Shown here: piece by piece, positions 3,940 through 21,006 of the stretch | How positions within the stretch are numbered: position 1 is the first letter of the stretch | How the letters are laid out: the number at the start of each line of letters is the position of its first letter | Source of the DNA: Gluconacetobacter takamatsuzukensis | Lineage (GTDB): Bacteria; Pseudomonadota; Alphaproteobacteria; Acetobacterales; Acetobacteraceae | DNA: 64,000 nucleotides | Assembly: GCF_014174275.1 (NCBI RefSeq) | Contig: NZ_JABEQK010000004.1 | Span: 62,001 to 126,000, forward strand | Direction: 5' to 3' | Made by a program: the position numbers and the translations under genes | The notes under the pieces: model-generated | Told to the model about the DNA's origin: nothing | Database searches by the model: none | The model's input: only the letters and a program-made list of their open reading frames with translations

Positions 3940-4875
3940 CTAAATGCGCAGGGTCTGCCGGTCGTTTTTGTCGATCCAGCCGAGAGCGGACATGTCCTGC
4001 GTGATCCATTCGTAATCGGGATTCGTGACATTTTCGGCGACGAAGGTGACGGGTTCCGGCGTCGTGGTTTCGTCGAGTGTGGCGAGGGTGGCGCGGGCGG
4101 GGAGGGCGAGGCCGCCTTCCTCGGGCGGCCGGGCGAGGTCGTGTGCGATGGCCTGCCGGTTTTCGCGGGCCCGGCAGTAGAACACGGCGTCATGCAGGGC
4201 GGCCTTGAGGCGGTCGGCGCTGTCGGTGATCGTATCCGAGATGACCAGGAGTTTTTCGAGATGGGAGGGCATGACGGTGGAGGAGCCGCCGACCAGGAAG
4301 CCGAGGCCGCGCAGGCAGGCCTCGGTGCCCCATGAGGGGCCGACGCAGCCGCCGTCGATGGCGCGATCGGCCAACGCGCCGATCATGTCGGCGGGGGGCA
4401 TGACGACGAGTTCGATTTCGCTGTCCATATCCACCCCGATCATGCCGAGGAAGCGGCGCAGGATGAGCAGATGGGTGGAATACATGTGGACCACCGCGAG
4501 GCGCGGGCGGCGGTCCATCGTGTGCCGCCACCGGTCGAACGCCTGTCGTCCCTGCGCGCCGGCCGGCCATGGTGTGGCGAGCGGGTTGGTGCCGCGCAGG
4601 ATCAGCGTGTTGCCGCCGCGGCTGAGCGTACAGAGGGGGCGCAGGGAGGCGGGGTGGCCGCGCCGTCCGAGTGCGGTCATGATGGCGAGAGGGGGGAAAA
4701 TGACGGCAGCGTCGAGCATTTTCCATGCCAGACCGTCTGCGATGTTGGACCAGGAGGGGGAGACCACGATTTCGGCCGCGATGTCGTGCCGCGCGAACAG
4801 GCCGTGGTTGCGGGCGATGACGACCGGTGCGCTGTCGGTCAGCCGCAGCAGGCCGATCCGCAGGGGGCGGGTCAT
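3940..4875 (-). CDS. nasS: NasS nitrate/nitrite sensor, NrtA-like
   Basis: A 311-residue protein related to the nitrate-binding proteins of ABC transporters (NrtA/CmpA), opening MTRPLRIGLLRLTDSAPVVI. It has no signal peptide or lipobox, and no ABC nitrate transporter genes are adjacent, so it fits the cytoplasmic sensor NasS rather than a transport component. In known NasST systems NasS binds NasT when nitrate and nitrite are absent and releases it when they bind. The start overlaps the nasT stop (ATGA at 4872-4875), implying coupled translation and matched amounts of the two partners. Last gene of the nitrate operon. Confidence 0.87.
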   Translation of the reverse strand: MTRPLRIGLLRLTDSAPVVIARNHGLFARHDIAAEIVVSPSWSNIADGLAWKMLDAAVIFPPLAIMTALGRRGHPASLRPLCTLSRGGNTLILRGTNPLATPWPAGAQGRQAFDRWRHTMDRRPRLAVVHMYSTHLLILRRFLGMIGVDMDSEIELVVMPPADMIGALADRAIDGGCVGPSWGTEACLRGLGFLVGGSSTVMPSHLEKLLVISDTITDSADRLKAALHDAVFYCRARENRQAIAHDLARPPEEGGLALPARATLATLDETTTPEPVTFVAENVTNPDYEWITQDMSALGWIDKNDRQTLRI

Positions 4876-5504
4876 GGTGTGCCGTCCCGGCCATGGGCAG
4901 CCAGATAATCGGCGGCGACGGCGGCGATGCGCTGCGCCGTCTGCATGGCGCGGCGGCGAAACCAGCGATAAGCCTGATCTTCCGTCGTGTTCTCGTTCTT
5001 CATGAAGAGTCTCTTCGCCTGGTCGATGAGCTTCTGTTCCGCCAGCTGGCGCTGGGCCTCGGTCAGTTCGCCGCGTGTGCGCTGGAAGCGGGTGTAGAGG
5101 GCGATGGCGGCGCGCAGCAGGGGTTTGACGTCGTCTGGCGGGGCTTCCAGCACATTGTAGGAACAGATGCCGATATCGAAGGCGGTTTCCATCAGTTCGA
5201 CATCGTCCCGATCGACGAACAGGGCCACCGGACGTTCCAGCGCGGGCTGGGACAGGGCGCGGATACTGTCCAGCGCGTCGCGGTCGGCGCGCCCCATATC
5301 GACCAATATCACGTCGGGCTGGTACCGGCGCACCGCGTCGATCAGGGCGGTGCCGGCGGGGATGGACAGTACGCGCAATGACGGGTCGGCCCGCAGATCG
5401 TCCGACAGGGCACGGGCGCGGCGCGTGTTCTCGTCGGCCACGAGGACGGTCATCGGCGGCCGGGCCGGGCGGCCGGGGATATCGGCCGGGTCATCAGTAA
5501 ACAT
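4872..5504 (-). CDS. nasT: NasT, ANTAR-domain transcription antiterminator
   Basis: Response-regulator-like N-terminal half (MTVLVADENTRRARAL, with DVILVDMG) followed by a C-terminal ANTAR RNA-binding domain from about residue 150 (AEQKLIDQAKRLFMK then AYRWFRRRAMQTAQRI). ANTAR proteins bind paired hexaloop hairpins in mRNA leaders and prevent termination; this operon's own leader has such a pair (13650-13730). The start at 5504 overlaps the reductase gene by 11 bases; an internal ATG at 5453 would begin directly at the receiver fold and is a real alternative. Activity is expected to be set by NasS binding, not phosphorylation. Confidence 0.9.
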   Translation of the reverse strand: MFTDDPADIPGRPARPPMTVLVADENTRRARALSDDLRADPSLRVLSIPAGTALIDAVRRYQPDVILVDMGRADRDALDSIRALSQPALERPVALFVDRDDVELMETAFDIGICSYNVLEAPPDDVKPLLRAAIALYTRFQRTRGELTEAQRQLAEQKLIDQAKRLFMKNENTTEDQAYRWFRRRAMQTAQRIAAVAADYLAAHGRDGTP

Positions 5505-8500
5505 CGCGCAGATAGCGGCTCTCCCGCGTCAGTGCGGTCATGAAATCGGCGGCCTGGGCGGCGGACAGGCCCCCGTGACGGGCGACGATCCGGTGCAGGG
5601 CGGCATCGACATCGCGTGCCATGCGGGCGGCGTCGCCGCAGACATACACGAAGGCGCCGGCTTGCAGCCAGTCCCACAATTCCGCCCCGGCCTGTTCCAT
5701 GCGGTCCTGCACGTAGATCCGCGTGGGCTGGTCGCGCGAGAAGGCGGTGTCGAGGCGAGTCAGGACGCCGTCGGCGTGCCAGGATTCCAGTTCGTGCCGG
5801 TAATAGAATCCCTGTTCGGCGTAGCGTTCGCCGAAGAACAGCCACGTGCGGCCGGTGGCCTTGCGCGCCGTGCGCTCCTGAAGGAAGGCCCGGAAGGGGG
5901 CTATACCGGTGCCGGGGCCGATCATGACGATCGGGGCGTCGTCATTGTCCGGCAGGCGGAAATGGGAGGTCGGCTGGATGAAGACCGGGACCTGCTCGTC
6001 CTGCGCCAGTGCGGCGAGCCAGGTGGAGCACAGGCCGGGCCAGGGGTCGCGACTGACGCCCATGGTCAGTTCCACGACGCGGCCGGACAGGCTGGACGAC
6101 GAGGCGATGGAATAGAGGCGTGGCTGCATGCGGCGGAACATGGGCGGGATGTCCTGCGCCGTGACGCCGAGGGCGACATTCTGGAGCAGGTCGGGGAGGA
6201 AGCCGCCCTCGGTCCGGCCCAGGGCCGCGAGCAGGGCCGGGTTGGGACGGGAGAGGTCCAGATGACGGCGCAGGGCCTCGCGCAGGCCGACCGTGCCGTG
6301 GCCGCGCAGGACGATCGGCGTGTCGTCGGGCAGGCGCAGGGCGGCGAGGGCGGCCTCGACATGGGCCGGCGGGTTGCAGGGCCAGATGCCCAGTGCGTCG
6401 CCCGGTTGCCAGGCGAGGTCGGTGGTGCCGAGATCGAGGCCGATGCGGCGGGTGTCCCTGTCCGCGCCATCGGGGCACAGGCTCTGGTTGAGGACCAGGC
6501 GGGCGAGGGCCGGGGTGTCGCGGGTGCCTTGGGTAGGCGGCTCGGGTGCCGGTGCCGGGATATCGGGGATGTCGGGGGTGGTGTGGGAGCCGAGGGCTGT
6601 CAGGAGGGCGCCACGCCAGGCCTCGACCGTGTCCTCGAAATCGGGTTCGCAGTCCACGCGGTCCAGCAGCATGGTGGCGCCGAGCGCGCGCAGGTGGGCG
6701 TCGAGCGCGCGGCCGAAGCCGCAGAAGCCGGCATAGGAGGAATCGCCCAGGGCCAGGATGGCGCAGGTGAGGTCGGGCAGTGGGGCCTGACGTGCGCGCA
6801 GGGCGGCCCAGAAGGGGCCCGCGCAGTCGGGCGGGTCGCCGTCGCCGAAGGTGGAGACGATGAAGAGGGCGCGGCCGGAGCCCGGGTCGCCGGAGCCGCA
6901 CTGGTCGAGGCAGGCGATGGTGACGGGGTGGCCGGCCTGACGCAGCCATGTGGCGACCGTGGCGGCGAGGGCCTCGGCGCGGCCGGTCTGCGAGGCCCAC
7001 CAGATGCGGATGGCGGGGGTCGGGGTCGGCGTGGGCGTGTCTTCGGGCGCGCCCCGGCTGTAAAGGCCGGCCAGCAGGCCGCCGACCCGGGCGCGGGCCA
7101 GCGGGTCGAGCGGTGCGTGGGCGGGGATCAGCGGCAGCGTGCCGGGGGCGGGTGGGGCGAGGCGCAGCCCTTCGAGAAAGCCTGTGAGCCAGGCTTTGGC
7201 GTCTTCATCGAGGGCGAGCGGTTCGGGGGCGGCCAGGCCGAGATGCCGGGCGATCGGTCCGGGGGACATGTCGTTCGGTCCTTGGGGTGCCGCGACGCGT
7301 TGCAGCGCGACGGCGCAGAGTTTGAAGCCGGGCTGGAGGGACACGGGATCGACGGCGTCGGAGGTGACGGTGTTGACGGCGATGTCCGTCCCGAACCGGT
7401 CGTTCCAGTGAAAGGGGGCGAAACAGGTGCCGGGGCGGACGGCCTGGGCGATGCGGGCCGGCAGGATGATGCTGCCCCGGCGGGAGGCGATGCGGACGCT
7501 GTCGCCCGGTGCGAGGCCCAGCGTGCGGGCGTCCTCTGTCGCGATTTCGACGAACGGGCCGGGGTTGAGGCGATTGAGGCTTTCCACGCGGCCGGTCTTG
7601 GTCAGGGTGTGCCACTGATGTTGCAGGCGGCCGCTGTTGAGCACGAAGGGAAAGGTGTCGTCCGGCCATTCCTCGGGGCGCATCCATGGGCGGGCGTGGA
7701 AGATGGCGCGGCCGTCCGGCGTGGCGAAGACCGGGGGGCCGCCCGGAGCGGGCAGGTAGCGGATGGGATGGCGGGCGGCGGTGTCGCCCTCGGGTGCGGG
7801 CCACTGGACGGGGCCGGCGCGGAGGCGGTCGTGGGTGATGCCGGCGATGTCGTAGCCGGTGCCGGGATTGGTGAAGCGGCTGGCCTCGGCGAAGATTTCG
7901 GCGGCCGAATGGAAGGAGAAACCGTCGGCGAAACCCATGGCGCAGGCGACCTGCGCGATGATCGCCCAGTCGGCCATCGCCTCGCCCGGTGGGGCGACGG
8001 CCTGGCGGGCCAGGGTCAGGGTGCGGTCTGAATTGACCTGCACGCCGTCGGCCTCGGCCCACAGCGCGCCGGGGAGCAGGATATCGGCGTAGCGCGTGGT
8101 TTCGCTGTCGGCAAAGGCGTCCTGCACGATCACACATTCGGCGGCTTGCAGCGCGCGGATGACGTGGTTGCGGTTGGCGACGGTGGCGACGGGGTTGGTG
8201 CAGATGACCCAGCAGGCCTTGATGTCGCCGCGCTCCATTGTCTCGAACATCGCGATCGCGCCCTGGCCGCCGGCCGCGCGTATCGTGCCGGGGGCGAGGC
8301 CCCATTGCCGTTCGACGAAGGCGCGGTCGGCGGCGACCAGTGCGCTGCGCTGGCCGGGCAGGCCGGGGCCCATATAGCCCATCTCGCGCCCGCCCATGGC
8401 GTTGGGCTGGCCGGTCAGCGAGAAGGGGCCGCAGCCCGGGCGGCAGATCGCGCCGGTGGCCAGGTGCAGGTTGCACAGGGCATTGGTGTTCCATGTGCCC

Positions 8501-9405
8501 GTCAGGCTCTGGTTGAGGCCCATGGTCCACAGGCTCATCCATGCGTCGGCCTGGGCGATCCATTGTGCGGTGGTCAGGATGTCCGCGACCGGCAGGCCGG
8601 TGATGCCGGCCACGGTTTCCGGCGGGTAATCGGCCAGGAAGGCGGGCATGGCCTGCCACCCCGTGGTGGCCTGGGCGATGAAGCCGGGATCGATGGCACC
8701 GTTGCGGACCAGCAGATGGAGCAGGCCGTTGAGCAGGGCGAGGTCGGTGCCCGGGCGGATGGGAAGATACAGATCGGCCTTTTCGGCCGTTGCGGTGCGG
8801 CGGGGGTCGACCACGATGAGTTTCGCGCCCGCCCGTTTGCGGTCCATCAGCCGCAGGAACAGGATCGGGTGGCAATCGGCCATGTTCGCGCCGATGACGA
8901 AGAACAGGTTGGTGCTGTCGAAATCCTCGTAGCTGCCGGGCGGGGCGTCGGCGCCGAGCGAAAGCTTGTAGCCGCTGCCGGCGGCGGCCATGCAGAGGCG
9001 GGAATTGGATTCGATATGCTGGCTGCGGACATAGGCCTTTGCCAGCTTGTTGACCAGGTACTGCGCTTCCAGCGACATCTGGCCGGAGACGTAGAAGGCA
9101 ATCGCGTCGGGGCCGTGCGTGTCGAGGATGGTGCGCAGGCGCCGGGCGGTGGTTGCGATGGCATCCGACAGCGGGACGGGCGTGGGTTCGTCGCCGCGTG
9201 CGGTGCGCAGGGCGGCGCCTGTCAGCCGCTGGGGCGAGGACAGGGGCTTGTCGCAGGAACTGCCCTTGGTGCACAGCCGGCCGGCATTCGACGGGTGCGC
9301 GGGGTCGCCGCGCACCTTCGCGATCCGGCCGTTCTCGACCTCCAGGATGAGTCCGCAGCCGACCCCGCAATAGGGACAGACGGAGCGGATGTCTTCCTTC
9401 GCCAT
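5494..9405 (-). CDS. Assimilatory nitrate reductase fused to CysJ-like diflavin reductase
   Basis: A 1303-residue protein predicted to reduce nitrate to nitrite in the cytoplasm with its own NAD(P)H electron chain. Residues 1 to about 690 are a molybdopterin oxidoreductase of the NasA/NarB type: a 4Fe-4S site (C10, C13, C17, C45), the likely molybdenum ligand C138 in SRLCMA, and the C-terminal dinucleotide-binding domain. A flavodoxin domain starts near residue 797 (WWASQTGRAEALA). It is followed by an FAD domain (RLYSIASS near 1096) and a nucleotide-binding domain (GPGTGIAPFRAFLQER near 1160). This layout is annotated elsewhere as a bifunctional nitrate reductase/sulfite reductase flavoprotein. 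It starts 6 bases after nirBD ends. Confidence 0.92.
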   Translation of the reverse strand: MAKEDIRSVCPYCGVGCGLILEVENGRIAKVRGDPAHPSNAGRLCTKGSSCDKPLSSPQRLTGAALRTARGDEPTPVPLSDAIATTARRLRTILDTHGPDAIAFYVSGQMSLEAQYLVNKLAKAYVRSQHIESNSRLCMAAAGSGYKLSLGADAPPGSYEDFDSTNLFFVIGANMADCHPILFLRLMDRKRAGAKLIVVDPRRTATAEKADLYLPIRPGTDLALLNGLLHLLVRNGAIDPGFIAQATTGWQAMPAFLADYPPETVAGITGLPVADILTTAQWIAQADAWMSLWTMGLNQSLTGTWNTNALCNLHLATGAICRPGCGPFSLTGQPNAMGGREMGYMGPGLPGQRSALVAADRAFVERQWGLAPGTIRAAGGQGAIAMFETMERGDIKACWVICTNPVATVANRNHVIRALQAAECVIVQDAFADSETTRYADILLPGALWAEADGVQVNSDRTLTLARQAVAPPGEAMADWAIIAQVACAMGFADGFSFHSAAEIFAEASRFTNPGTGYDIAGITHDRLRAGPVQWPAPEGDTAARHPIRYLPAPGGPPVFATPDGRAIFHARPWMRPEEWPDDTFPFVLNSGRLQHQWHTLTKTGRVESLNRLNPGPFVEIATEDARTLGLAPGDSVRIASRRGSIILPARIAQAVRPGTCFAPFHWNDRFGTDIAVNTVTSDAVDPVSLQPGFKLCAVALQRVAAPQGPNDMSPGPIARHLGLAAPEPLALDEDAKAWLTGFLEGLRLAPPAPGTLPLIPAHAPLDPLARARVGGLLAGLYSRGAPEDTPTPTPTPAIRIWWASQTGRAEALAATVATWLRQAGHPVTIACLDQCGSGDPGSGRALFIVSTFGDGDPPDCAGPFWAALRARQAPLPDLTCAILALGDSSYAGFCGFGRALDAHLRALGATMLLDRVDCEPDFEDTVEAWRGALLTALGSHTTPDIPDIPAPAPEPPTQGTRDTPALARLVLNQSLCPDGADRDTRRIGLDLGTTDLAWQPGDALGIWPCNPPAHVEAALAALRLPDDTPIVLRGHGTVGLREALRRHLDLSRPNPALLAALGRTEGGFLPDLLQNVALGVTAQDIPPMFRRMQPRLYSIASSSSLSGRVVELTMGVSRDPWPGLCSTWLAALAQDEQVPVFIQPTSHFRLPDNDDAPIVMIGPGTGIAPFRAFLQERTARKATGRTWLFFGERYAEQGFYYRHELESWHADGVLTRLDTAFSRDQPTRIYVQDRMEQAGAELWDWLQAGAFVYVCGDAARMARDVDAALHRIVARHGGLSAAQAADFMTALTRESRYLRDVY

Positions 9406-9411
9406 GATGCG

Positions 9412-12306
9412 TCAGGTGGGCAGGAGGTCCGGCATTGCCGGGAGTTTCGCCCGGATCTGCACCCTGCCGTCATGCAGCCGGGCATCCCATGTGCGCAGGC
9501 GGATAGCGGCATCTTCCAGGCACTGGCCGTCTTCCAGCCGGAAATGCTGTTTGTAGAGCGGGGAGGCGACGATCCGCTGTCCTTTCAGGTCGCCCATCAG
9601 GCCACGGCCGATGACATTGGCGTTGGAGAACGGATCGTGGTTGTCGATCGCGTAGACCCGGGCGGGCTCGCCGGTCGATGCGGGCAGGTAGAAGAGGGCG
9701 ACCTGGCTGCCCGCGTGCCACGCCACGACGCCGGAACGGGCGACGAGGTCGGTCTGGGCGCAGAGGTCGGTCCAGTCGGCGGGGCCGGGCTGGGGGGCTG
9801 TTTCGGGCAGATTGTCGGCGGGGCGGACCTGGTCGCGTTCCGGCAGGGTGCGGACGTTGGGGTCCGGACGGGTATCGTTGACGAAGGTGCGGAAGCGCTT
9901 GAGCTTGTCGCGGTCTTTCAGCGCGTCGCGCCATTCGCAGTGATAATGGTCCACCACGGATTGCATCTGGCGTTCCAGTTCGGCGCAGATGCCCAGCGAA
10001 TCGTGGATGATGACATCGCGCAGATAGTCCAGCCCGCCTTCGAGATTTTCGCGCCAGACGGAGGTGCGCTGGAGCCTGTCGGCCGTTCGGATGTAGAACA
10101 TCAGGAAACGGTCGATATAGCGGACCAGCGTTTCGGCATCGAGATCGGTCGCGAACAGTTCGGCGTGGCGGGGCCGCATGCCGCCATTGCCGCAGACATA
10201 GAGGTTCCAGCCGTTTTCGGTGGCGATGACGCCGACATCCTTGCTCTGGGCCTCGGCGCATTCGCGCGTGCAGCCGGAGACCGCGAATTTCAGCTTGTGC
10301 GGCGAGCGCAGGCCCTTGTAGCGGTTCTCCAGGTCCAGCGCCTTGCCCACGCTGTCCTGCACGCCGTAGCGGCACCATGTGCTGCCGACGCAGGATTTGA
10401 CGGTGCGGGTCGATTTTCCGTAGGCGTGGCCGGTCTCGAACCCCGCATCGAGCAGTTCGGTCCAGATGTCGGGCAATTGGTGGAGCTGGGCGCCGAACAG
10501 GTCGATGCGCTGGCCTCCGGTGATCTTGGTGTAGAGGCCGTATTTTTTCGCGACCTGGCCCAGAACGATCAGCCTGTCGGGCGTGATTTCGCCCCCGGCG
10601 ATGCGCGGTACCACCGAGTAGGTGCCGTTTTTCTGCATGTTGGCCATGAACGTGTCGTTCGTGTCCTGCAGGGGGATATGGAGCGGGTCGGTGATCGGCT
10701 TGTTCCACGCCGAGGCGAGGATGGAGCCGATGGCGGGCTTGCAGATGTCGCAGCCCAGGCCGCCATTGCCATGCTGGGCCATCAGCTCTTCGAAAGTCTG
10801 GAGTCCGTGCACGCGGACCAGCGAATAGAGTTCCTGCCTTGTATGGGAAAAATGCTCGCACAGGCTGCGGTCGACGGTGATGCCGCGGGCTTCCAGATCG
10901 GTCTCGAACACGTTCTTCAGCAGGGCGGCGCAGCCGCCGCAGCCGGTGCCTGCCCTGGTGCATTGCTTGAGGGAGGCCAGATCGGTGCAGCCTTCGTCGA
11001 TGGCGGTGCGGATCGCGCCCTTGGTGACGTTGTGGCAGGAGCAGATGGTGGCGGTATCGGGCAGGGCGTCGGCGCCCAGCAGGTCAGCGCCCTCGCCGCG
11101 CGGCAGGATCAGCACCGCCGGATCGGCGGGCGGCCTGATGGCGTTCTGCACATATTGCAGGATCGTGTCGTAATAGGAATTGTCGCCCACCAGTACCGCG
11201 CCGACTACCCGCGTGCCGTCGCCCGACAGGACCAGGCGGCGGTATGAACCGTCGGCCTCGCCGATGAAGCGGTAGCTGCGACTGCCGGGGATTGCGCCGT
11301 GGGCATCGCCGATGGAGCCGACATCGACGCCCAGCAGCTTGAGCTTGGTGGACATGTCGGCGCCGCCGAATGCCGCGTCCTCGCCGGCCAGGATGGAGGC
11401 GACGGTGCGGGCCATGGCGTAGCCGGGCGCGACCAGGCCGAAGACCTGCCCGTTCCATGCCGCGCATTCGCCGATGGCGAAGATGGCGGGGTCGGACGTG
11501 CGGCACGCATCGTCGATGACGATGCCGCCGCGCGGGGCGACGGCGAGATGGCAGTCGCGGGCCAGCCGGTCCTGCGGCCGGATGCCGGCGGAGAAGACGA
11601 CCAGATCGGTTTCCAGAATGCCGTCATCGGCAAAGACGAGGCGGTGGCGGCATGTTTCCCCGGCCGTGATCTCCCGCGTGGCGCGGCTGGTCAGCACCGC
11701 GATGCCCAGGGCCTCGATCCGCTGCTTCAGGGCCTGGCCGCCTTCGTCATCGAGCTGGACCGGCATGAGGCGGGGGGCGAATTCGACGACCGAGGTGGCC
11801 AGGCCGAGGCCTGCCAGCGCATTGGCGGCCTCCAGCCCCAGCAATCCGCCGCCGATGACGACGCCGCGGGATGCACCTGCGGCGGCGGCGCGGATCTGGT
11901 CCAGATCATCCAGCGTGCGATAGACCAGCCCGGCGGTGCCGCTGTTGCCAGGCACGGACGGCACGAAGGGCGTGGAGCCGGTGGCGATGATGAGCGTGTG
12001 GTAGGGCAGCGCGCCCTCGTCGCTTTCGACGGTCCGAGCCGTGCGGTCGATCGCCGTGACGCGGATGCCGCGATGCAGGGTCATGCCGTGGGCGGCGTGG
12101 AAATCCTGCCTGTGGAGGGCCAGGGCGGCGGCATCCTGGCCGGCCATGTAGGCGGTGAGATGCACGCGGTCGTAGGCGTCGTGCCGTTCCTCGCCGAAGA
12201 TGTGGATGGCGTGGTGGTGGTGCAGGCCGTGCATGACGAGCTGTTCGGCGCAGTAATGGCCGACCATGCCGTTGCCGATGATGACGATGTTTCCGGTGCT
12301 GGTCAT
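9412..12306 (-). CDS. nirB: NirB-NirD fusion, assimilatory nitrite reductase [NAD(P)H]
   Basis: Reduces nitrite to ammonium in the cytoplasm, the step after nitrate reductase. The 964 residues contain, in order: an FAD/NAD-dependent oxidoreductase domain (IVIIGNGMVGHYCAE), a BFD-like 2Fe-2S domain near 416 (CSCHNVTKG, then CGGC), and the sirohaem/4Fe-4S domain (CVGSTWC near 640, GCTRECAEA near 677). From about 845 there is a NirD-like Rieske-fold domain (VYAIDNHDPFSNANVIGRG) that, as usual for NirD, lacks Rieske cysteines. NirD is normally a separate protein. The ATG at 12306 is chosen because it opens on the FAD-binding motif; the frame stays open to 13377 only as a shadow of the transporter gene. 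Confidence 0.93.
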   Translation of the reverse strand: MTSTGNIVIIGNGMVGHYCAEQLVMHGLHHHHAIHIFGEERHDAYDRVHLTAYMAGQDAAALALHRQDFHAAHGMTLHRGIRVTAIDRTARTVESDEGALPYHTLIIATGSTPFVPSVPGNSGTAGLVYRTLDDLDQIRAAAAGASRGVVIGGGLLGLEAANALAGLGLATSVVEFAPRLMPVQLDDEGGQALKQRIEALGIAVLTSRATREITAGETCRHRLVFADDGILETDLVVFSAGIRPQDRLARDCHLAVAPRGGIVIDDACRTSDPAIFAIGECAAWNGQVFGLVAPGYAMARTVASILAGEDAAFGGADMSTKLKLLGVDVGSIGDAHGAIPGSRSYRFIGEADGSYRRLVLSGDGTRVVGAVLVGDNSYYDTILQYVQNAIRPPADPAVLILPRGEGADLLGADALPDTATICSCHNVTKGAIRTAIDEGCTDLASLKQCTRAGTGCGGCAALLKNVFETDLEARGITVDRSLCEHFSHTRQELYSLVRVHGLQTFEELMAQHGNGGLGCDICKPAIGSILASAWNKPITDPLHIPLQDTNDTFMANMQKNGTYSVVPRIAGGEITPDRLIVLGQVAKKYGLYTKITGGQRIDLFGAQLHQLPDIWTELLDAGFETGHAYGKSTRTVKSCVGSTWCRYGVQDSVGKALDLENRYKGLRSPHKLKFAVSGCTRECAEAQSKDVGVIATENGWNLYVCGNGGMRPRHAELFATDLDAETLVRYIDRFLMFYIRTADRLQRTSVWRENLEGGLDYLRDVIIHDSLGICAELERQMQSVVDHYHCEWRDALKDRDKLKRFRTFVNDTRPDPNVRTLPERDQVRPADNLPETAPQPGPADWTDLCAQTDLVARSGVVAWHAGSQVALFYLPASTGEPARVYAIDNHDPFSNANVIGRGLMGDLKGQRIVASPLYKQHFRLEDGQCLEDAAIRLRTWDARLHDGRVQIRAKLPAMPDLLPT

Positions 12307-13610: not shown

Positions 13611-13647
13611 GCCCGCCTGGCATCAGGAGAACGCGCCCTCGGCGGGC
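13611..13647 (-). promoter_or_regulatory. Possible downstream stem in nitrate leader
   Basis: In the transcript, GCCCGCC (13641-13647) can pair with GGCGGGC (13611-13617), closing just upstream of the transporter GTG. A smaller alternative, GCCC/GGGC, lies at 13635-13647. Neither is followed by a run of T, so it is not a textbook intrinsic terminator. It occupies the position where the NasT-controlled terminator or a translation-blocking stem would be expected. The role is inferred from position alone. Confidence 0.4.
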
Positions 13648-13649
13648 AT

Positions 13650-13730
13650 GAAAGCCGTCTTTGACTTCCCGGTGTCTCGTCGTGTTGCTTCTGGCCGCGC
13701 CTGGTTCATCCGCCGCCGTTGGCGGGAACC
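13650..13730 (-). promoter_or_regulatory. Dual-hexaloop ANTAR (NasT) antitermination element
   Basis: Two hairpins lie in the 5' leader of the nitrate operon, read on the minus strand. Hairpin 1 (13703-13730): outer stem GGTTC/GAACC, inner stem CCGCC/GGCGG, AT bulge, loop AACGGC. Hairpin 2 (13650-13669): stem GGAAGTC/GGCTTTC (with G-U pairs), loop AAAGAC. Both loops are six bases with A first and G fourth, the defining feature of ANTAR-protein RNA targets. A linker of 33 nt separates them. The same operon encodes NasT, an ANTAR protein. Pairing was worked out by eye. Confidence 0.83.
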
Positions 13731-13754: not shown

Positions 13755-13783
13755 ATTATCCAGCAAGAATGATATGGAGTCAA
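13755..13783 (-). promoter_or_regulatory. Near-consensus sigma-70 promoter of the nitrate operon
   Basis: On the minus strand, -35 TTGACT (13778-13783) is separated by exactly 17 bases from -10 GATAAT (13755-13760), each one base from consensus. The predicted start near 13748 gives a leader of about 153 nt before the transporter GTG, containing both hexaloop hairpins. A strong constitutive promoter followed by a leader checkpoint is the expected design for antitermination control. Confidence 0.75.
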
Positions 13784-13870: not shown

Positions 13871-15082
13871 CTAGAGGCTGAGGAGGAAGGCTGTGCGCCA
13901 TGGCGTATCGGGGCGCGGGGGGTCCAGGGTGAGGGAGCCGCCGTGGGCCTGGGCGATCTGGCGGGCGAGGCTGAGGCCGATGCCGTTGCCGTTGGGTTTC
14001 AGCGAGAAGAAGGGGCGGAAGATCGCGTCGCGGTAGGTGTCCTCGATGCCGCTGCCATTGTCGCGGATGGCGATGACCATGCCGGTCGAGGTGGCGTGGC
14101 CCTGGAGCCAGACGGTGGGGCCGGTGGGGCCGGCGGGATCGGCGGCGGCAAGTGCGGCCTCCGCCGCGTTGTTGAGAAGGTTGAGCAGCGCCTGTTCCAT
14201 CTGCGGCGCGTCGAGGCGGACGATGACGCGGCGTGGGGGGACGCTGGTTTCGAGATGCACCCGGCCGTGCCAGCGGGCACCGAACAGGGCGCCGAGGGCG
14301 CGCAGTAGGTCGTGCAGGTCGGTCGGGCGCAGGTCGGGGGGCGGCAGGCGGGCGAGGTCGCGATAGCCCTGCACGAAACGGTCGAGCCCGCGCGTGCGGC
14401 GCAGGATGGTGCCCAGGGCCTCGTGGATCATGTCCGCCGTCGCCGGGTCCATTGGGTGTTCCGCCATCTCATGGGCGGTTTCGGCCAGCGAGACGATCGG
14501 GGTGAGGGAGTTCATGATCTCGTGGCCCAGGATCTGGAGCAGGTCGCGCAGGGTGCGGGCGTCGGCGGCGTTCAGTTCCGCCTCGATATCCGTCAGGGCC
14601 AGGAAATGCGTGACGCCGCCCGAGCCGCTGCCCTGCGCGACCGCCAGCGCGAAGGTGCGGGGCGGGGCATCCTGCATGGTGGGAATGCGCACGATGCGGC
14701 GTTCAGCCGAGGGCGTGCCCAGCAGGGCGGCCGTGTCGGCGGGCAGGCGGTCCTCGGTGCCGAACAGGTGGCGGGCGGCGCGGTTGGCGGCGTGGAGCGC
14801 GCCGTCGCCCGTGCGGTAGAGCAGGGGGATGGGGGCGTGGTCCAGCAGGGCGCGGTTGCGCAGCCTCTCGCGGTCCGAGGGGCGGACGATGGAGGTTTCG
14901 ACCCGCATCGGCCTCTGCGACAGGCGGGCCAACGTGGCCAGGTGGATGACCGAAGCGGCCGTGGCCGCCAGTGCCAGCAGCGCGGTGGTGGCATAGAGCC
15001 CCGCCGCCAGCGCGCGTGGTGCCAGCAGGCAGGTGCCGGCGACCAGGGCGATGCAGATGACCCCGCTGCGGATGGCGCGCAT
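13871..15082 (-). CDS. Membrane sensor histidine kinase, NtrY-like
   Basis: A 403-residue kinase with two N-terminal membrane helices (about 7-27 and 28-50) and almost no periplasmic loop. A PAS-like region spans about 75-165, and the phosphoacceptor H187 lies in LGHEIMNSLTPIVSL. The ATPase domain has NLLNNAAEAAL (N box), DNGSGI (G1) and GNGIGLSLARQI (G2). It starts 2 bases after the response regulator ends, so the two form an operon. Kinases with this HEIMNSLTPI box often accompany NtrC-like regulators next to FtsX-type exporters, which matches the divergent operon here. The stimulus is unknown. Confidence 0.9.
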   Translation of the reverse strand: MRAIRSGVICIALVAGTCLLAPRALAAGLYATTALLALAATAASVIHLATLARLSQRPMRVETSIVRPSDRERLRNRALLDHAPIPLLYRTGDGALHAANRAARHLFGTEDRLPADTAALLGTPSAERRIVRIPTMQDAPPRTFALAVAQGSGSGGVTHFLALTDIEAELNAADARTLRDLLQILGHEIMNSLTPIVSLAETAHEMAEHPMDPATADMIHEALGTILRRTRGLDRFVQGYRDLARLPPPDLRPTDLHDLLRALGALFGARWHGRVHLETSVPPRRVIVRLDAPQMEQALLNLLNNAAEAALAAADPAGPTGPTVWLQGHATSTGMVIAIRDNGSGIEDTYRDAIFRPFFSLKPNGNGIGLSLARQIAQAHGGSLTLDPPRPDTPWRTAFLLSL

Positions 15083-15084
15083 CG

Positions 15085-16287
15085 CTACAGCCCGTAGCGC
15101 GCCATGCGGCGATACAGGGCCGGGCGGGTCAGCCCGAGGTCGCGCGCCGCATGCGAGACGTTGAAACCGTGCCGGCGCAGGGCGGATTCGATCAGCGCGC
15201 GTTCGGATTCCGCCAGTGTCGGACTGTCATGTGCGCGGTCGCCGTCGGGGGACAGGGGGGCGTCGGCATCGCCCAGCACCACCATCCGCTCCATCGCCGC
15301 GCGCAGTTCGCGGACATTCTGCGGCCAGGGGCGCTGGCGGAGCGCATCGATGGCGGCGGCGTCCGGCACCGGTTCGGGCAGGCCGTGGCGGATGGCGAAA
15401 TAATGCAGGAAATGCGTGGCCAGGACCGGAATATCGTCCGGGCGTTCGGCCAGCGGGGGCAGCGCGACGCGGACCGCGTCCAGCGGCAGCCACAGGCGCG
15501 GCGGCAGGCGGGCGGCGAGTTCTTCCGCCCCCAGGGACGACAGGGCCAGGACGCGGGGCGGGGCGGCACCGTCCAGCCGGTCGGCCAGGGCGCGCTGGAG
15601 CGTGGGTGCGAGGGATTCGATGCCGCGCAGGATCCAGGTGCCGCGCTCGGCGGGCAGGGCGGACAGGCCGTCCGCGTCGATCAGGACCGGGGGGTGCGGG
15701 TCGCCAGAGCGGGCGTGAATCCGGCGGGCCAGCAGGGTCTTGCCGCTGCCGGGCGGGCCGGACAGCAGCATGTGCGCGCGGGTGGGCGCGATGCGGTCGG
15801 CCAGGGCGAGGGGGGCGCGCATCGGGGCCGATACCGCGATCAGGACCGGCTCGGCGGCATGGGTGTCGGGCTCGGGCGGTCGGGTTTCGCGCCGCCGGCG
15901 GTCCAGCGTGTCGTGCAGCAGGGTGACCAGCCGTTCGTTATGCCACGGCTTCATGACGAAATCGGTGGCGCCCTCGCGCATCGCGGCGACGGCGATGGCG
16001 ACGCCGCTATGGCCCGTCACGACGATGATCGGCAGGGCGGGGCGCAGCGCGTGCAGGTCGCGCAGCAGCGCCAGCCCTTCCGCCCCCGTGGTGGCGCCGG
16101 GCGCGTAGTTGAGGTCCAGCAGCACCAGGTCGATCGGCTCGGCGGCCACATGGGTGAGGGCTTCTGCCGCGTCGTGCGCCGCGAGGACGCGGAAGCCGCG
16201 CCGCGTCAGCAGCAGGCGGGCGGCGGACTGGATGTCGGCGTCGTCGTCGACGAACAGGACCGTTGGCTGCGTGGCCGGGTCCGTCAT
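15085..16287 (-). CDS. NtrC-family response regulator lacking GAFTGA
   Basis: A 400-residue regulator. The receiver domain has acidic D14-D16, phosphoacceptor D58 (LVLLDLN) and K113. An AAA+ remnant keeps Walker A GPPGSGKT (177-184) and the later PLAERPDDIPVLATHFL and WPQNVRELRAAM segments. The loop carrying GAFTGA is missing, and Walker B (normally LFLDEIG) reads WILRGIE. A Fis-type helix-turn-helix ends the protein (HAARDLGLTRPALYRRM). Without GAFTGA it should not drive sigma-54 and more likely acts as a conventional DNA-binding activator or repressor. The ATG at 16287 has a GGGAG ribosome site and opens directly on the receiver fold. Confidence 0.9.
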   Translation of the reverse strand: MTDPATQPTVLFVDDDADIQSAARLLLTRRGFRVLAAHDAAEALTHVAAEPIDLVLLDLNYAPGATTGAEGLALLRDLHALRPALPIIVVTGHSGVAIAVAAMREGATDFVMKPWHNERLVTLLHDTLDRRRRETRPPEPDTHAAEPVLIAVSAPMRAPLALADRIAPTRAHMLLSGPPGSGKTLLARRIHARSGDPHPPVLIDADGLSALPAERGTWILRGIESLAPTLQRALADRLDGAAPPRVLALSSLGAEELAARLPPRLWLPLDAVRVALPPLAERPDDIPVLATHFLHYFAIRHGLPEPVPDAAAIDALRQRPWPQNVRELRAAMERMVVLGDADAPLSPDGDRAHDSPTLAESERALIESALRRHGFNVSHAARDLGLTRPALYRRMARYGL

Positions 16288-16350
16288 GGTGTGGTTGCTC
16301 CCGATTCGTTGCGTGGTCGCCTGGATATCGTCTTGACAGGGCCGCCCGGC

Positions 16351-16385
16351 TGTCCGGTTTCGGACAGTTTGTCCGCTGGCGGACA
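16351..16385. promoter_or_regulatory. Tandem palindromic operator, TGTCCG-N4-CGGACA twice
   Basis: Two 16-bp palindromes with identical 6-base arms lie at 16351-16366 (spacer GTTT) and 16370-16385 (spacer CTGG), centres 19 bp apart. They are in the 193-bp gap between the response regulator (minus) and the exporter operon (plus). A possible -10 (TACAAT, 16420-16425) lies 35 bases downstream, placing the sites around -54 and -73. This is the most likely binding site for the adjacent regulator; binding is inferred. Confidence 0.75.
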
Positions 16386-16480
16386 GGGGGAGGCGGCGAG
16401 CCCGAAAACATCCTTTTCTTACAATGGGATAAAAATCCGTCCGGGTACCATACACTGTTTGCGAACGAGGGAAACAGAGC

Positions 16481-17803
16481 ATGGACCGACCGATTTCACC
16501 CCCCGACGCCGTGCCGTCGCCGACCCGTCCGCTGCCCGGTGGCCGGATGGACCGGGCGGTGCGTCGCCCGCGCCACCATGTGCTGATGCGCCGCGCGGTA
16601 CGCTGGGGGGCCGCGGTGGCCGTGCTGGTGGCCAGCGTGGTGGTGTGGCGGATCGTGCCGGCATCGGGGACGCTGTCGGTGCGCGGCGACCAGCTGACGA
16701 TCGAGACCGTCCGTTCGGCGCCGTTTCTGGATTATCTTCCCGTTCGCGCCAGCGTGGCGCCGCTGCATGTGACCTATGTGGGCGCGGTGCAGGGCGGCGA
16801 GGTGTCGGAGGTGGTGGCGCGCGACGGCGCGCTGGTGGCCCGGGACGATATTCTCGCGCGGCTGACCAACCCGCAGTTGCAGCTCGACGTGACATCCCGC
16901 GAGGCGCAGATCGCCAGCCAGCTGGGCGCGGTCAGCGCGCAGCGGCTGGCGTTGCAGCAGACGCGCACCGGCGAGGAAAGCCAGCTTGGCGAGGCGCGCT
17001 ACAATCTGTTGAAGGCGCGGCGGGAGCTGGAGATTCACGAACAGCTGCACGCGCAGGGGTTCGAGTCCGACGCCAACCTGCAAAGCTATCGCGACGAGGC
17101 CGAATACGATGCCGCTCGCGTGGCGCGGCTGGATGCGGCGCGGGGGCAGGACCTGGCGGTGGCGGCCCGGCAGAGCGACGAGATCGACCGCGAGGCACAG
17201 CGGCTGCGCAGCAACCTGGAAGTGGTGGAGGACAGCCTGAACGCGCTGGTGCTGCGGGCGCCGGTGGCGGGGCGGCTGACGAATTTCGACCTCCAGCCCG
17301 GGCAGTCGCTGAAGGCGGGGGACCGGATCGGGCAGATCGACAGCGAGGGCCAGTATCGGCTGGATGCCGATATCGACGAATTCTATCTCGGCCGGGTTTC
17401 GGTCGGGCAGCGGGCGGATGCCGAGATGGGGGACGCGAAGGTCGCGATGACGGTGGCGCGCGTGCACCCGCAGGTGACGAACGGCCAGTTTCGCGCCGAG
17501 CTGACCTTTGACGGGGCGATGCCCGCCGGGCTGCGCCGGGGCGAGAGCGTGGATGTGCGCATTACGCTGGGCGAGACGCATCCGGCGCTGGTGCTGCCCA
17601 ACGGCGCGTGGCTGGAAGCCGGCGGCGGGTCGGCGGCCTTTGTCGTGACGCCGGACGGGCATGGCGCCGACCGGGCGGCGATTACATCAGGCCGGCGCAA
17701 CCCCGAGCAGGTGGAGATTACGGGCGGACTGCACGCGGGGGATCGCGTCGTCGTCTCGTCATACAATTCCTACAAGAATTTCAATCATCTCTCGATTCAC
17801 TGA
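16481..17803 (+). CDS. Periplasmic adaptor (membrane fusion) protein of ABC exporter
   Basis: A 440-residue HlyD/MacA-type adaptor linking an inner-membrane ABC exporter to an outer-membrane channel. It has a cytoplasmic N-terminus of about 35 residues, one membrane helix (about 41-58), and a lipoyl half-motif (VAPLHVTYVGAVQGGEVSEV). A long coiled coil covers about 135-250, followed by the second lipoyl half (LVLRAPVAGRLTNFDLQPGQ) and beta-barrel domains. A GAGGG ribosome site precedes the ATG. First gene of the exporter operon, directly downstream of the tandem palindromes. Confidence 0.9.
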   Translation: MDRPISPPDAVPSPTRPLPGGRMDRAVRRPRHHVLMRRAVRWGAAVAVLVASVVVWRIVPASGTLSVRGDQLTIETVRSAPFLDYLPVRASVAPLHVTYVGAVQGGEVSEVVARDGALVARDDILARLTNPQLQLDVTSREAQIASQLGAVSAQRLALQQTRTGEESQLGEARYNLLKARRELEIHEQLHAQGFESDANLQSYRDEAEYDAARVARLDAARGQDLAVAARQSDEIDREAQRLRSNLEVVEDSLNALVLRAPVAGRLTNFDLQPGQSLKAGDRIGQIDSEGQYRLDADIDEFYLGRVSVGQRADAEMGDAKVAMTVARVHPQVTNGQFRAELTFDGAMPAGLRRGESVDVRITLGETHPALVLPNGAWLEAGGGSAAFVVTPDGHGADRAAITSGRRNPEQVEITGGLHAGDRVVVSSYNSYKNFNHLSIH

Positions 17804-17838
17804 ACGTACTTCCACCGAACGAACGGAATGCACCGGAC

Positions 17839-18522
<684 letters not shown>

Positions 18523-18534
18523 GGACCGGCCCCG

Positions 18535-21006
18535 ATGCTGAGCACCATCCTGCGAGGGGCCGCGCGGCAAGCGCGGCGGCACCCGGTCTATGTCGGGCTC
18601 GATCTGCTGGGCCTGGCGCTGGGGATCGGCGTGTTTCTGAGCCTGGCGTTGCTGGTGCGCCACGAATACAGCTTCAACGCCGGGCTGCCGGGTGTCGAGC
18701 GGCTGGTGCGGCTGGACGAACGCTGGACCCTGCCCGGTGTCGCGCCGATGGAAGAAGGGGATGCGACCTATCATGCCATCCCGTTCCTGCTTCAGGATTT
18801 TCCGGAAATCGAGGATGCGCTGCACCTGGTGGGGACGACGTTCCGGACCGAACAGGACGGGAAGTTCACGAAATTCGACGGCATCGAAACCGATGCGTCC
18901 TTCTTTCGCGTCTTCGGGATCGGCCTGTCGCGCGGGGTGGCGGGGGAGGCGCTGGCGCGGCCGGATGGGCTGGTCCTGTCCGAAAAGGCGGCGCTGAAGG
19001 CGTTCGGCACGCTCGACGTGCTGGGGCGGCGCATCGAACTCAACCGGTTGGGGACGCGATCGGTCCATGTCGTGACCGGAATCATGACGCCCGTACGCGG
19101 GCCGAACCTGCTGGCGAACGCCGAGATGGTGGTGCCCATTCCGGCCGAGGAAGCCCGGACGCGGCCGTGCTTCCTGTATTGGGGCTCGTCATGCGACCCG
19201 GTGATCCTGCGCCTGAGAAAGCCGGAGGATATCGATGCCGTGCGCGCGCGGTTGCGCGATTTCGTCATTCGCCATGCGTCGGGGGCCGAGAGCGATCCGG
19301 CTGCCATCGGGCCGCATCCGGAGAAGATCTACGAATTGCGGCTGGTGCCGCTGCGGCAGACGAATTTCTACGATGTGGGCGTCGAGAACACGGATGACGG
19401 CGTGGATCGCAATGTCGTCGATGCGATCGGGCTGATCGGGTTCCTGGCCCTGGTGCTGGCCTGCGCCAATACGATCAACCTGGCGACCGCGCGTGCCGGG
19501 CTGCGGGCGCGGGAGGTTGCGGTGCGCAAGACGCTGGGGGCCACGCGGCGGCTGCTGTTTGTCCAGTTCATGGGCGAGGCGCTGTTCGTCACCAGTGTCG
19601 CGGGGATTGTGGGCCTGGTGTTCTGCGAGATCCTGACGCCAGAGATCGCGAGCCTGACGGGCGAGGCCGTGACCGTTTCGTACGGGTTCGTGCTGGCCGT
19701 GCTGCCGGTGGTGATCGTGCTGGCGGGGCTGGCCAGCGGGTTTCATCCGGCCACCATCCTGTCGGGCTATCGGCCGGCGGCCGTGCTGGCGGCGGCGCGC
19801 ATGCCTTCCGGCGGGCGGGGGGCGGCGCGGTTGCGCAACAGCCTGGTCGCCGGGCAGTTCGCGATTGCGGTTGCCATCGTCATCTGCACGCTGGTGATCG
19901 ACCGGCAGACCGCGTTCATGCGCGATGCGGACCGGGGCTATGTCAAGTCCGGGCTGCTGGTCGGCCAGCCGCTGCGCGGCAACGACCCTGCGCTGGAGCG
20001 CAGGATGCTGGACGCGCTGCGGTCGGTGCCCGGGGTCACGGCGATTGCGTTCGGGATATTGGAGCCGAACCCGCATTCCATGTCGCGCTCGGGCTATAAA
20101 TATGCCGGGCCGAACGGGCCGGTCGAGATCCAGATGCTGTTCGACCGCGTGGGGCCGGGTTATTTCGAGGTCTATCGTCCGCGCCTGCTGGCGGGGCGCT
20201 GGTTCGACCCCATGCGAGGGCAGGACGAGGGGCCGGATGCCGACAACCTGCGGAACGGCACCGGCAGTTTCAATGCCGTGGTCAATGCCAAGGCGGCGGC
20301 GACGCTGGGGTTTGCCTCGCCCGGGCTGGCGATCGGCCAGGTCCTTACGAATGACGGGCTGAAGGCGCGGATTATCGGCGTGGTGGACGACATGCGCTTC
20401 GTGTCGCCGCGCGACCCGGTGTCGCCGGAGATCATCTATTTCGACACGCTGGCGCGGGTGCCGTTTGTCGACCCCGTTCCGGCCGTGCGCTTCGCGGGCG
20501 TGACGCGGGCGGTGATGGCCGAGCGGCTGGACCGGGCCTGGGCCACGGTGCGGCCGGAACTGGCCAGTTCGTTCCAGCCCGCCGACGAGAGGATGGAGGA
20601 TTATTTCACCGGGGACGAGCGGCGGGGCCATATCTTTACCCTCGGCGCGGTGGTGTCGCTGCTGATCGCCTGCATGGGGCTGTACAGCCTGGCCGCGTTC
20701 TCGGCGATCCGGCGGGTGCATGAGATCGGTATCCGCAAGACGCTGGGCGCGTCGGGGGGGCAGATCGCCGGCCTGCTGCTGCGCGATTTCCTGCGGCCGG
20801 TGGCGTTGGCCTGCGTGCTGGCGTGCCCGGTGGCGTGGGTGCTGATGCGGTCGTGGCTGTCGGGCTTCGACCAGCGCGTGCCGCTGAGCCCGCTGCATTT
20901 CCTGATTGCCGTCGGCGGGGCGTTCCTGATCGCGACGCTGACGGTGCTGGGGCAGACGATCCGTGTCGCGCGCGCCGAGCCCGCGCGGGCGTTGCGGGCC
21001 CAGTGA
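18535..21006 (+). CDS. Double-FtsX ABC permease 1
   Basis: An 823-residue inner-membrane permease made of two MacB/FtsX halves, each with a periplasmic domain and a set of helices. The first half has the N-terminal helix at about 20-42 and a coupling motif in REVAVRKTLGATRRLL. The second has EIGIRKTLGASGGQIA near residue 735. Such proteins use mechanotransmission, not a channel through the bilayer, to move periplasmic or membrane substrates outwards. It starts 12 bases after the ATPase gene. It is clearly paralogous to the next permease across its whole length. Confidence 0.9.
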   Translation: MLSTILRGAARQARRHPVYVGLDLLGLALGIGVFLSLALLVRHEYSFNAGLPGVERLVRLDERWTLPGVAPMEEGDATYHAIPFLLQDFPEIEDALHLVGTTFRTEQDGKFTKFDGIETDASFFRVFGIGLSRGVAGEALARPDGLVLSEKAALKAFGTLDVLGRRIELNRLGTRSVHVVTGIMTPVRGPNLLANAEMVVPIPAEEARTRPCFLYWGSSCDPVILRLRKPEDIDAVRARLRDFVIRHASGAESDPAAIGPHPEKIYELRLVPLRQTNFYDVGVENTDDGVDRNVVDAIGLIGFLALVLACANTINLATARAGLRAREVAVRKTLGATRRLLFVQFMGEALFVTSVAGIVGLVFCEILTPEIASLTGEAVTVSYGFVLAVLPVVIVLAGLASGFHPATILSGYRPAAVLAAARMPSGGRGAARLRNSLVAGQFAIAVAIVICTLVIDRQTAFMRDADRGYVKSGLLVGQPLRGNDPALERRMLDALRSVPGVTAIAFGILEPNPHSMSRSGYKYAGPNGPVEIQMLFDRVGPGYFEVYRPRLLAGRWFDPMRGQDEGPDADNLRNGTGSFNAVVNAKAAATLGFASPGLAIGQVLTNDGLKARIIGVVDDMRFVSPRDPVSPEIIYFDTLARVPFVDPVPAVRFAGVTRAVMAERLDRAWATVRPELASSFQPADERMEDYFTGDERRGHIFTLGAVVSLLIACMGLYSLAAFSAIRRVHEIGIRKTLGASGGQIAGLLLRDFLRPVALACVLACPVAWVLMRSWLSGFDQRVPLSPLHFLIAVGGAFLIATLTVLGQTIRVARAEPARALRAQ

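Follow-up and report, generated by a model that had tools for sequence, protein, structure and literature searches.

A candidate NasT-binding dual-hexaloop leader in the nitrate assimilation operon of Gluconacetobacter takamatsuzukensis, with nasT and nasS as the last genes of the operon

Results

The stretch of DNA analyzed here (the window) comprises 64,000 nt of a Gluconacetobacter takamatsuzukensis contig and hosts a nitrate assimilation (nas) operon on the (−) strand, with the following features in the direction of transcription:

13755..13783 (−): sigma70-type promoter, TTGACT-17-GATAAT, 10/12 consensus matches
13710..13725 (−): hairpin P1, CCGCC-AACGGC-GGCGG, loop 13720-13715, A1 at 13720
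13670..13709 (−): linker between P1 and P2, 40 nt
13650..13669 (−): hairpin P2, GGAAGUC-AAAGAC-GGCUUUC, loop 13662-13657, A1 at 13662
13611..13647 (−): P3, the best hairpin downstream of P2 and upstream of narK, with 15 nt between its end and the start codon
12375..13595 (−): narK, nitrate/nitrite transporter, GTG start (TIGR00886, 260 bits, below the cut-off of 311.7)
9412..12306 (−): nirBD, fused assimilatory nitrite reductase, start inferred (TIGR02374 and TIGR02378 above cut-off)
5494..9405 (−): nasA, fused to a flavodoxin/CysJ-like reductase
4872..5504 (−): nasT, receiver-like and ANTAR domains (ANTAR, E = 7e-13)
3940..4875 (−): nasS, nitrate-sensor-like protein (NMT1_2, E = 6e-39)

The predicted transcription start lies at ~13748, giving a leader of ~150 nt. 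The genes narK-nirBD-nasA-nasT-nasS are likely carried on a single transcript, with overlaps of 11 nt between nasA and nasT (the first ATG being assumed for nasT) and 4 nt between nasT and nasS, and with neither a terminator-like nor a promoter-like site found on the operon strand from narK to nasS; a weak promoter-like match (9/12) lies downstream of nasS on the same strand. These coordinates bear out an earlier note on this DNA, which had placed nasT and nasS as the final two genes of the operon. NasT carries the only ANTAR match in the genome, which scores above cut-off, as well as a Response_reg match of 27.3 bits (below the cut-off of 30.2). NasS, with its NMT1_2 domain, is a putative nitrate- and NasT-binding protein. 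At 311 aa, NasS shares 43-60% identity with most of the relatives compared and 82-85% with the four closest, and is conserved less than NasT and NirB. Genes for a histidine kinase and a sigma54-type response regulator (13871-16482) are located on the same strand, ending ~90 nt upstream of the nas promoter.

P1 and P2 lie between the sigma70-type promoter and narK, and both display a six-base loop with A first and G fourth, so the two leader hairpins with loops AACGGC and AAAGAC are present on the (−) strand where the earlier note had described them. In the predicted fold, P1 has an outer extension, GGUUC/GAACC. A scan for hexaloop pairs (stems of at least 5 pairs, loop spacing of 40-75) returned one pair on the (−) strand of the window, P1/P2, and one on the (+) strand, with chance expectations of 0.6 per 64-kb strand (40 Markov sequences) and ~0.0015 per 150-nt leader. 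The whole leader folds no better than shuffled sequences (z = −1.0, with 27 of 200 shuffles equally good), and the support for the hairpins is therefore comparative rather than energetic. The earlier note had called for a search with an ANTAR RNA family model; to our knowledge, Rfam holds no general ANTAR family, and an Rfam search of the window gave no match at gathering level. The only relevant weak match was to the Rfam narK RNA (RF03032), a 16-nt match coinciding exactly with P1 (12.5 bits, model positions 33-48; E = 7.6), with a score that places the leader outside that family (cut-off, 43.2). Short upstream reading frames in the leader were considered and rejected, their start codons not being conserved in relatives (by eye), and a search for copies of the leader on plasmids gave no match.

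The earlier note had staked its reading on conservation of the A1 and G4 loop positions in related genomes. We picked 17 leaders by position before narK and aligned them with MAFFT (L135, where an insertion precedes narK, and L075 were left out). Both loops kept A1, G4, and the closing C-G pair without exception (17/17). With the window removed, the remaining 16 leaders displayed double changes in 10 of the 14 stem pairs; 92.0% of the 224 pair cells were standard compared with 74.6% after shuffling (0 of 500 shuffles as high), pairing fell to 31-60% when partner columns were slid by 1-3, and RNAalifold recovered P1 and P2 and nothing further. Stems backed by covariation and two six-base loops with A1 and G4, the marks of a dual-hexaloop ANTAR target, are thus both found. 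In L135 (G281; 1863-2699), an IS4/5-type transposase gene separates the leader from the body of narK.

We built two models of the leader, the first of which (R1) comprised the leaders of the 16 relatives and excluded the window. With R1, the window leader scored 111.9 bits (E = 5e-26 within the window and 3.1e-24 genome-wide), a value that in part reflects plain sequence likeness, six same-genus leaders being among the 16; no second significant target was found in the genome with R1, the next match having an E-value of 0.098. The second model (R2) comprised only 10 leaders from loci in which nasT and nasS come first (nasTS-first), with L058, L059, L060, L062, and L064 left out. R2 ranked the window leader top within the window (28.5 bits, E = 0.001); genome-wide, where the best 150 of 12102 candidates were scored, the leader was not reported, and its scaled genome-wide E-value of ~0.06 is marginal. 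On the 17 other loci in which nasT and nasS come last (nasTS-last), the leader was the best R2 match in 14 (E <0.1 in 8), ranked second in L163, and was missed in L131 and L077; the same run also took in L206, L211, and L219. Within the genus, R1 had matches in 9 of 14 genomes, 7 of which have a strong NasT match; the other two are G123 and G414, the contig of the latter breaking off within narK. In a draw from the family, R1 matched 21 of 299 genomes, 18 at E <1e-8 (16 of these with an ANTAR match, the exceptions being G123 and G218) and three weakly (G001, G019, and G248); the weak match in G001 lies away from its nas locus, where the scan missed the leader. At the G123 locus (L239, 4586-6019), the leader is retained, narK is broken, and what comes after it is the end of nasS; nirBD, nasA, and nasT gave no match there.

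A second NasT clade was scanned in 26 of its 28 rows (two near-copies of L092 were left out; a 7-row clade with L032 and L229 was not included). A hexaloop pair was found between nasT and the next NMT1-type gene in 25 of the 26 loci, as against 14 of 1000 random stretches, with a loop spacing of 39-69 nt; an earlier scan of this clade, limited to perfect stems and a loop spacing of 14-44, had yielded a pair in 2 of 26 only. At least 4 U in a row follow P2 in 1 of these 25 loci. That P1 and P2 are chance folds of a GC-rich leader is very improbable: the whole-leader z of only −1.0 is what such folds would give, and against it stand the loop invariance, the covariation, the R1 and R2 matches, and the second-clade count. 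The claim that the nitrate operon leader holds an ANTAR target is supported by the invariant A1 and G4, the covarying stems, and the matches of both models, and on these comparative grounds the window leader is very likely a target of NasT.

The 40-nt linker of the window falls within the range of 24-44 nt found across 33 leaders in the family (P2 being assigned by eye in L058, L059, L060, L062, and L064). It is far longer than the 5-12 nt of eut leaders and lies outside the 2-25 nt to which actinobacterial searches were limited, so the leader is not of the short-linker type. In E. faecalis eut, lengthening the linker to 14 nt drastically reduced induction (PMC3369931). Since the 2012 definition of ANTAR targets allows a variable linker (PMC3369931), a long one does not exclude membership in the dual-hexaloop class. 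A conserved hairpin within the linker was considered and rejected: over 33 leaders, z averaged −0.36 (Stouffer −2.1); some lineages show such a hairpin clearly, and the window has z = +1.25.

At the usual thresholds, no terminator-like site was found on the (−) strand of the window, and hence no U-tract terminator that P2 would exclude; with this and the 40-nt linker, the "textbook" ANTAR target of the earlier note was not borne out. At a threshold of at least 5 U of 8, P2-excluding terminator-like sites were found in 10 of 10 narK RNA loci (stems of 11-13 pairs; 0.2 expected from shuffled downstream sequence), in 3 of 18 nasTS-last leaders (L137, L138, and L139; 5-pair stem, U4-5; 0.3 expected), and in 0 of 10 nasTS-first narK leaders. 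With a relaxed threshold of 4 U of 8, 4 of 18 nasTS-last and 1 of 10 nasTS-first leaders qualified (1.4 and 0.6 expected). The P2-excluding candidate in the window appears at 4 U of 8 only and has a weak 6-pair stem (two G-U), a 9-nt loop, and the tail GUUCUCCU. Dropping the demand for overlap with P2 (usual thresholds, loop of 3-8) placed a site between P1 and +60 in 5 of 28 leaders, one of which (L079) has a terminator-like site between P2 and the start codon; 4 of the 28 have at least 4 U in a row in the interval from P2 to the start codon. L137, L138, and L139 represent a single Acetobacter-type lineage with a weak P2-excluding hairpin, unlike the remaining nasTS-last leaders. With no usual-threshold site on the (−) strand and the weak relaxed-threshold hairpin as the one candidate terminator, the antitermination proposed in the earlier note is an assumption.

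P3 adjoins the Shine-Dalgarno (SD) sequence on its 5′ side. In 12 of 18 nasTS-last leaders, 12-15 nt separate the best post-P2 hairpin from the start codon, and the arms of P3 covary, with native pairing beating all 5000 permutations among 14 of the 18 leaders (L073, L161, and L132, which are near-identical, and L075 were excluded). In the nasTS-first loci L043, L099, L105, and L109, the distance from the end of P2 to the start codon is 13-18 nt, which gives a terminator scant room. Two further arrangements were rejected. Masking of the SD under the control of P2 was one, as forcing or forbidding P2 gave no consistent shift in SD pairing (26 leaders); pairing of the 3′ strand of P2 with the 3′ strand of P3 (p = 0.035) or with the SD (p = 0.018) was the other, both being near chance given the 45 segment pairs compared for nasTS-last leaders. 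For nasTS-first leaders, p-values of 0.004-0.044 were obtained with several overlapping segments; these are hard to interpret because P2 sits close to the start codon there.

RF03032 was found in 21 of 398 genomes of the phylum (above cut-off in 16) and in 0 of 299 genomes of the order, the latter count being no proof of absence. Its consensus runs GGCaCAgcucUUGCU, then CC-AACGGC-GG, then CGAC-AAAGAC-GUCG; GGCaCAgcucUUGCU reads as a sigma54 -24/-12 element, and the second stem is missing from the Rfam structure line. The loops AACGGC and AAAGAC, with A1 and G4, are shared with the window, whereas the promoter (a sigma54-like element instead of a sigma70-type promoter) and the linker (~6-8 nt by eye instead of 40 nt) differ, as does the terminator, whose 5′ arm holds the 3′ half of P2 and which has a U-run in 10 of 10 loci; the window has no such terminator. 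Judged by these features, RF03032 (L172-L181) looks like a classical ANTAR leader consisting of a sigma54 promoter, a dual hexaloop, and a P2-excluding terminator. The eut, nasF, and amiE leaders resemble the window leader in having two hairpins with six-base loops and A1/G4 in both (PMC3369931) but possess an intrinsic terminator, of which the window has none at the usual thresholds.

Paracoccus denitrificans likewise has NasS and NasT, a nitrate operon, and leader hairpins that are 46 bp apart (PMC5424462, PMC3795266), but its nasTS lies upstream of nasABGHC rather than last. There, nitrate causes NasS and NasT to dissociate, and the nasA leader is bound by NasT (PMC3795266). The hairpins, 137 and 91 bp upstream of nasA, have both been mutated: HI is essential, its mutation abolishing growth on nitrate, and mutation of HII had little effect (PMC5424462). 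The amiEBCRS operon of Pseudomonas aeruginosa (AmiC-AmiR) shares with the window an ANTAR antiterminator and a ligand-binding inhibitor located late in their own operon (PMC3795266, PMC3369936), a layout that may, in our own reading, amount to autoregulation; it differs in responding to amides rather than nitrate and in having an intrinsic terminator in the leader.

The loci compared are part of the ANTAR matches found. Among 102 of them, nasT is first in 48, last in 19, and unclassed in 35 (20 without a NasT match and 15 without catalytic genes on that strand), so that most relatives place the pair differently from the window, in line with the remark of the earlier note that the sensor pair is often transcribed separately in well-studied NasST systems; in some of the "first" loci, the NMT1 gene after nasT may be nrtA rather than nasS. 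In a second set of 53 loci, which is biased since it was drawn with the NasT of acetic acid bacteria, nasT is last in 46 and first in 7. A NasT tree of 77 rows, rooted at its midpoint, separates the 24 nasTS-last rows from all others by a single branch supported at 100/100, corresponding to one change. This clade consists of acetic acid bacteria and, outermost, Beijerinckia mobilis (L219), which has an entire narK-nirBD-nasA-nasT-nasS operon 46-78% identical to that of the window. As its NasT is outermost in the nasTS-last clade and the operon lies in Beijerinckiaceae, the B. mobilis sequence points to horizontal transfer. The L219 leader has hexaloops AACGGC and ATCGGC, ~120 nt apart.

A sigma54 element (≤2 mismatches) precedes P1 in 14 of 15 nasTS-first narK leaders and in 0 of 18 nasTS-last leaders, and TTTTGA, part of the -35 box, is found in 16 of the 18. 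With such an element (≤3 mismatches) in just 6 of 25 second-clade loci, the sigma54 contrast is limited to sister lineages and does not cover all nasTS-first loci. Of 20 nasTS-last genomes, 7 yielded no sigma54 gene and an eighth (G399) a fragment only, whereas the gene was found in 12 of 12 others (11 nasTS-first and G107); the window's own genome has one. Between narK and nirB, an outer-membrane gene of ~510-570 codons is present in 10 of 13 relatives examined (L072 [17396-19081], L074, L076, L078, L080, L083, L086, L088, L162, and L163) and absent from the window, L161, L075, and L077; the L072 gene, the one on which domains were tested, matches Alginate_exp (E = 3e-29).

Discussion

The window leader is quite probably an RNA switch that binds NasT and raises operon expression with nitrate; NasT binding, the sign of its effect, and the single transcript are what we infer from sequence. 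Because NasS-NasT and leader binding have been established elsewhere, the same switch as in P. denitrificans can be proposed here. Without nitrate, NasS would hold NasT, and the leader would keep expression of narK-nirBD-nasA-nasT-nasS low; with nitrate, NasS would release NasT, which would bind both hexaloops, and expression would rise, including that of NasT and NasS themselves. The sign of the NasT effect can differ: a nasT mutant of B. diazoefficiens shows higher narK, a gene with hairpins predicted in its leader (PMC6759348).

The step under control is most likely Rho-assisted or U-poor attenuation, or narK translation initiation, and not a classical intrinsic terminator. Transcription attenuation that is Rho-assisted or otherwise U-poor and relieved by NasT is a real, if tentative, possibility: the strong terminator is absent, and a transcriptional fusion is reduced when HI is mutated in the Paracoccus leader, which is also widely spaced (PMC5424462), although the strong structure of the leader argues against it. 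Control of translation, with NasT on P1/P2 altering access to the narK SD via P3, is conceivable while somewhat doubtful. The covarying hairpin found at a distance of 12-15 nt from the narK start in 12 of 18 leaders is consistent with it, as are the position of P2 itself in L043, L099, L105, and L109, the nitrate effect beyond the RNA level (translational) proposed for P. denitrificans (PMC5424462), and the actinobacterial ANTAR RNAs known to overlap the ribosome-binding site (PMC8164766); forcing or forbidding P2, however, did not consistently change SD pairing, and pairing between the P2 strand and the SD reached just p = 0.018 among 45 tests.

Classical antitermination, in which P2 would exclude an intrinsic leader terminator as in eut, nasF, and amiE, fits the general ANTAR model (PMC3369931, PMC3369936), the P2-excluding sites of L137, L138, and L139, and the weaker one of the window, where there is also a U5 run at narK codons 5-6. 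We nevertheless consider it unlikely, as the window has no (−) strand site at the usual thresholds, the stems here have 5-6 pairs as against 11-13 in all 10 narK RNAs, 14 of 18 nasTS-last leaders lack any site even at 4 U of 8, and a run of at least 4 U near narK codons 5-6 is absent in 22 of 28 leaders. Weighing against the preferred reading of a NasT-controlled leader without a classical terminator are the 40-nt linker, which could matter given the effect of 14 nt in E. faecalis, the weak P2-excluding hairpin of the window, the inconsistent response of SD pairing to P2, and the lack of a genome-wide R2 match to the leader.

Autoregulation would follow from the gene order. The positive feedback suggested in the earlier note agrees with the position of nasT in its own operon, but the inhibitor NasS would rise along with NasT, and the layout is known from amiEBCRS; because both proteins would rise together, the net strength of autoregulation would depend on the NasT:NasS ratio. 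By this analogy, the circuit is not new in kind and represents a variant of the amiEBCRS-type layout. With chances somewhat below even, we suggest that Acetobacteraceae have long-linker ANTAR leaders on which NasT acts without a strong terminator and that, in acetic acid bacteria, one event made the operon autoregulatory as a sigma70-type promoter replaced the sigma54 one, leaving nitrate sensing by NasT as the main control.

The narK RNA combines the two hexaloops with a strong P2-excluding terminator, whereas in Acetobacteraceae the same hexaloops have a weak terminator or lack one, a natural contrast that makes it testable whether proteobacterial ANTAR proteins act other than by excluding an intrinsic terminator. 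A regulator pair at the end of its own target operon, combined with a different promoter class, also offers a tractable case of circuit rewiring. In the accessible portions of the open-licence literature, we found no paper on acetic acid bacteria that deals with nasTS as the closing genes of the operon; NirBD has been described as clustering with "a regulator" in Asaia and Beijerinckia (PMC4013037).
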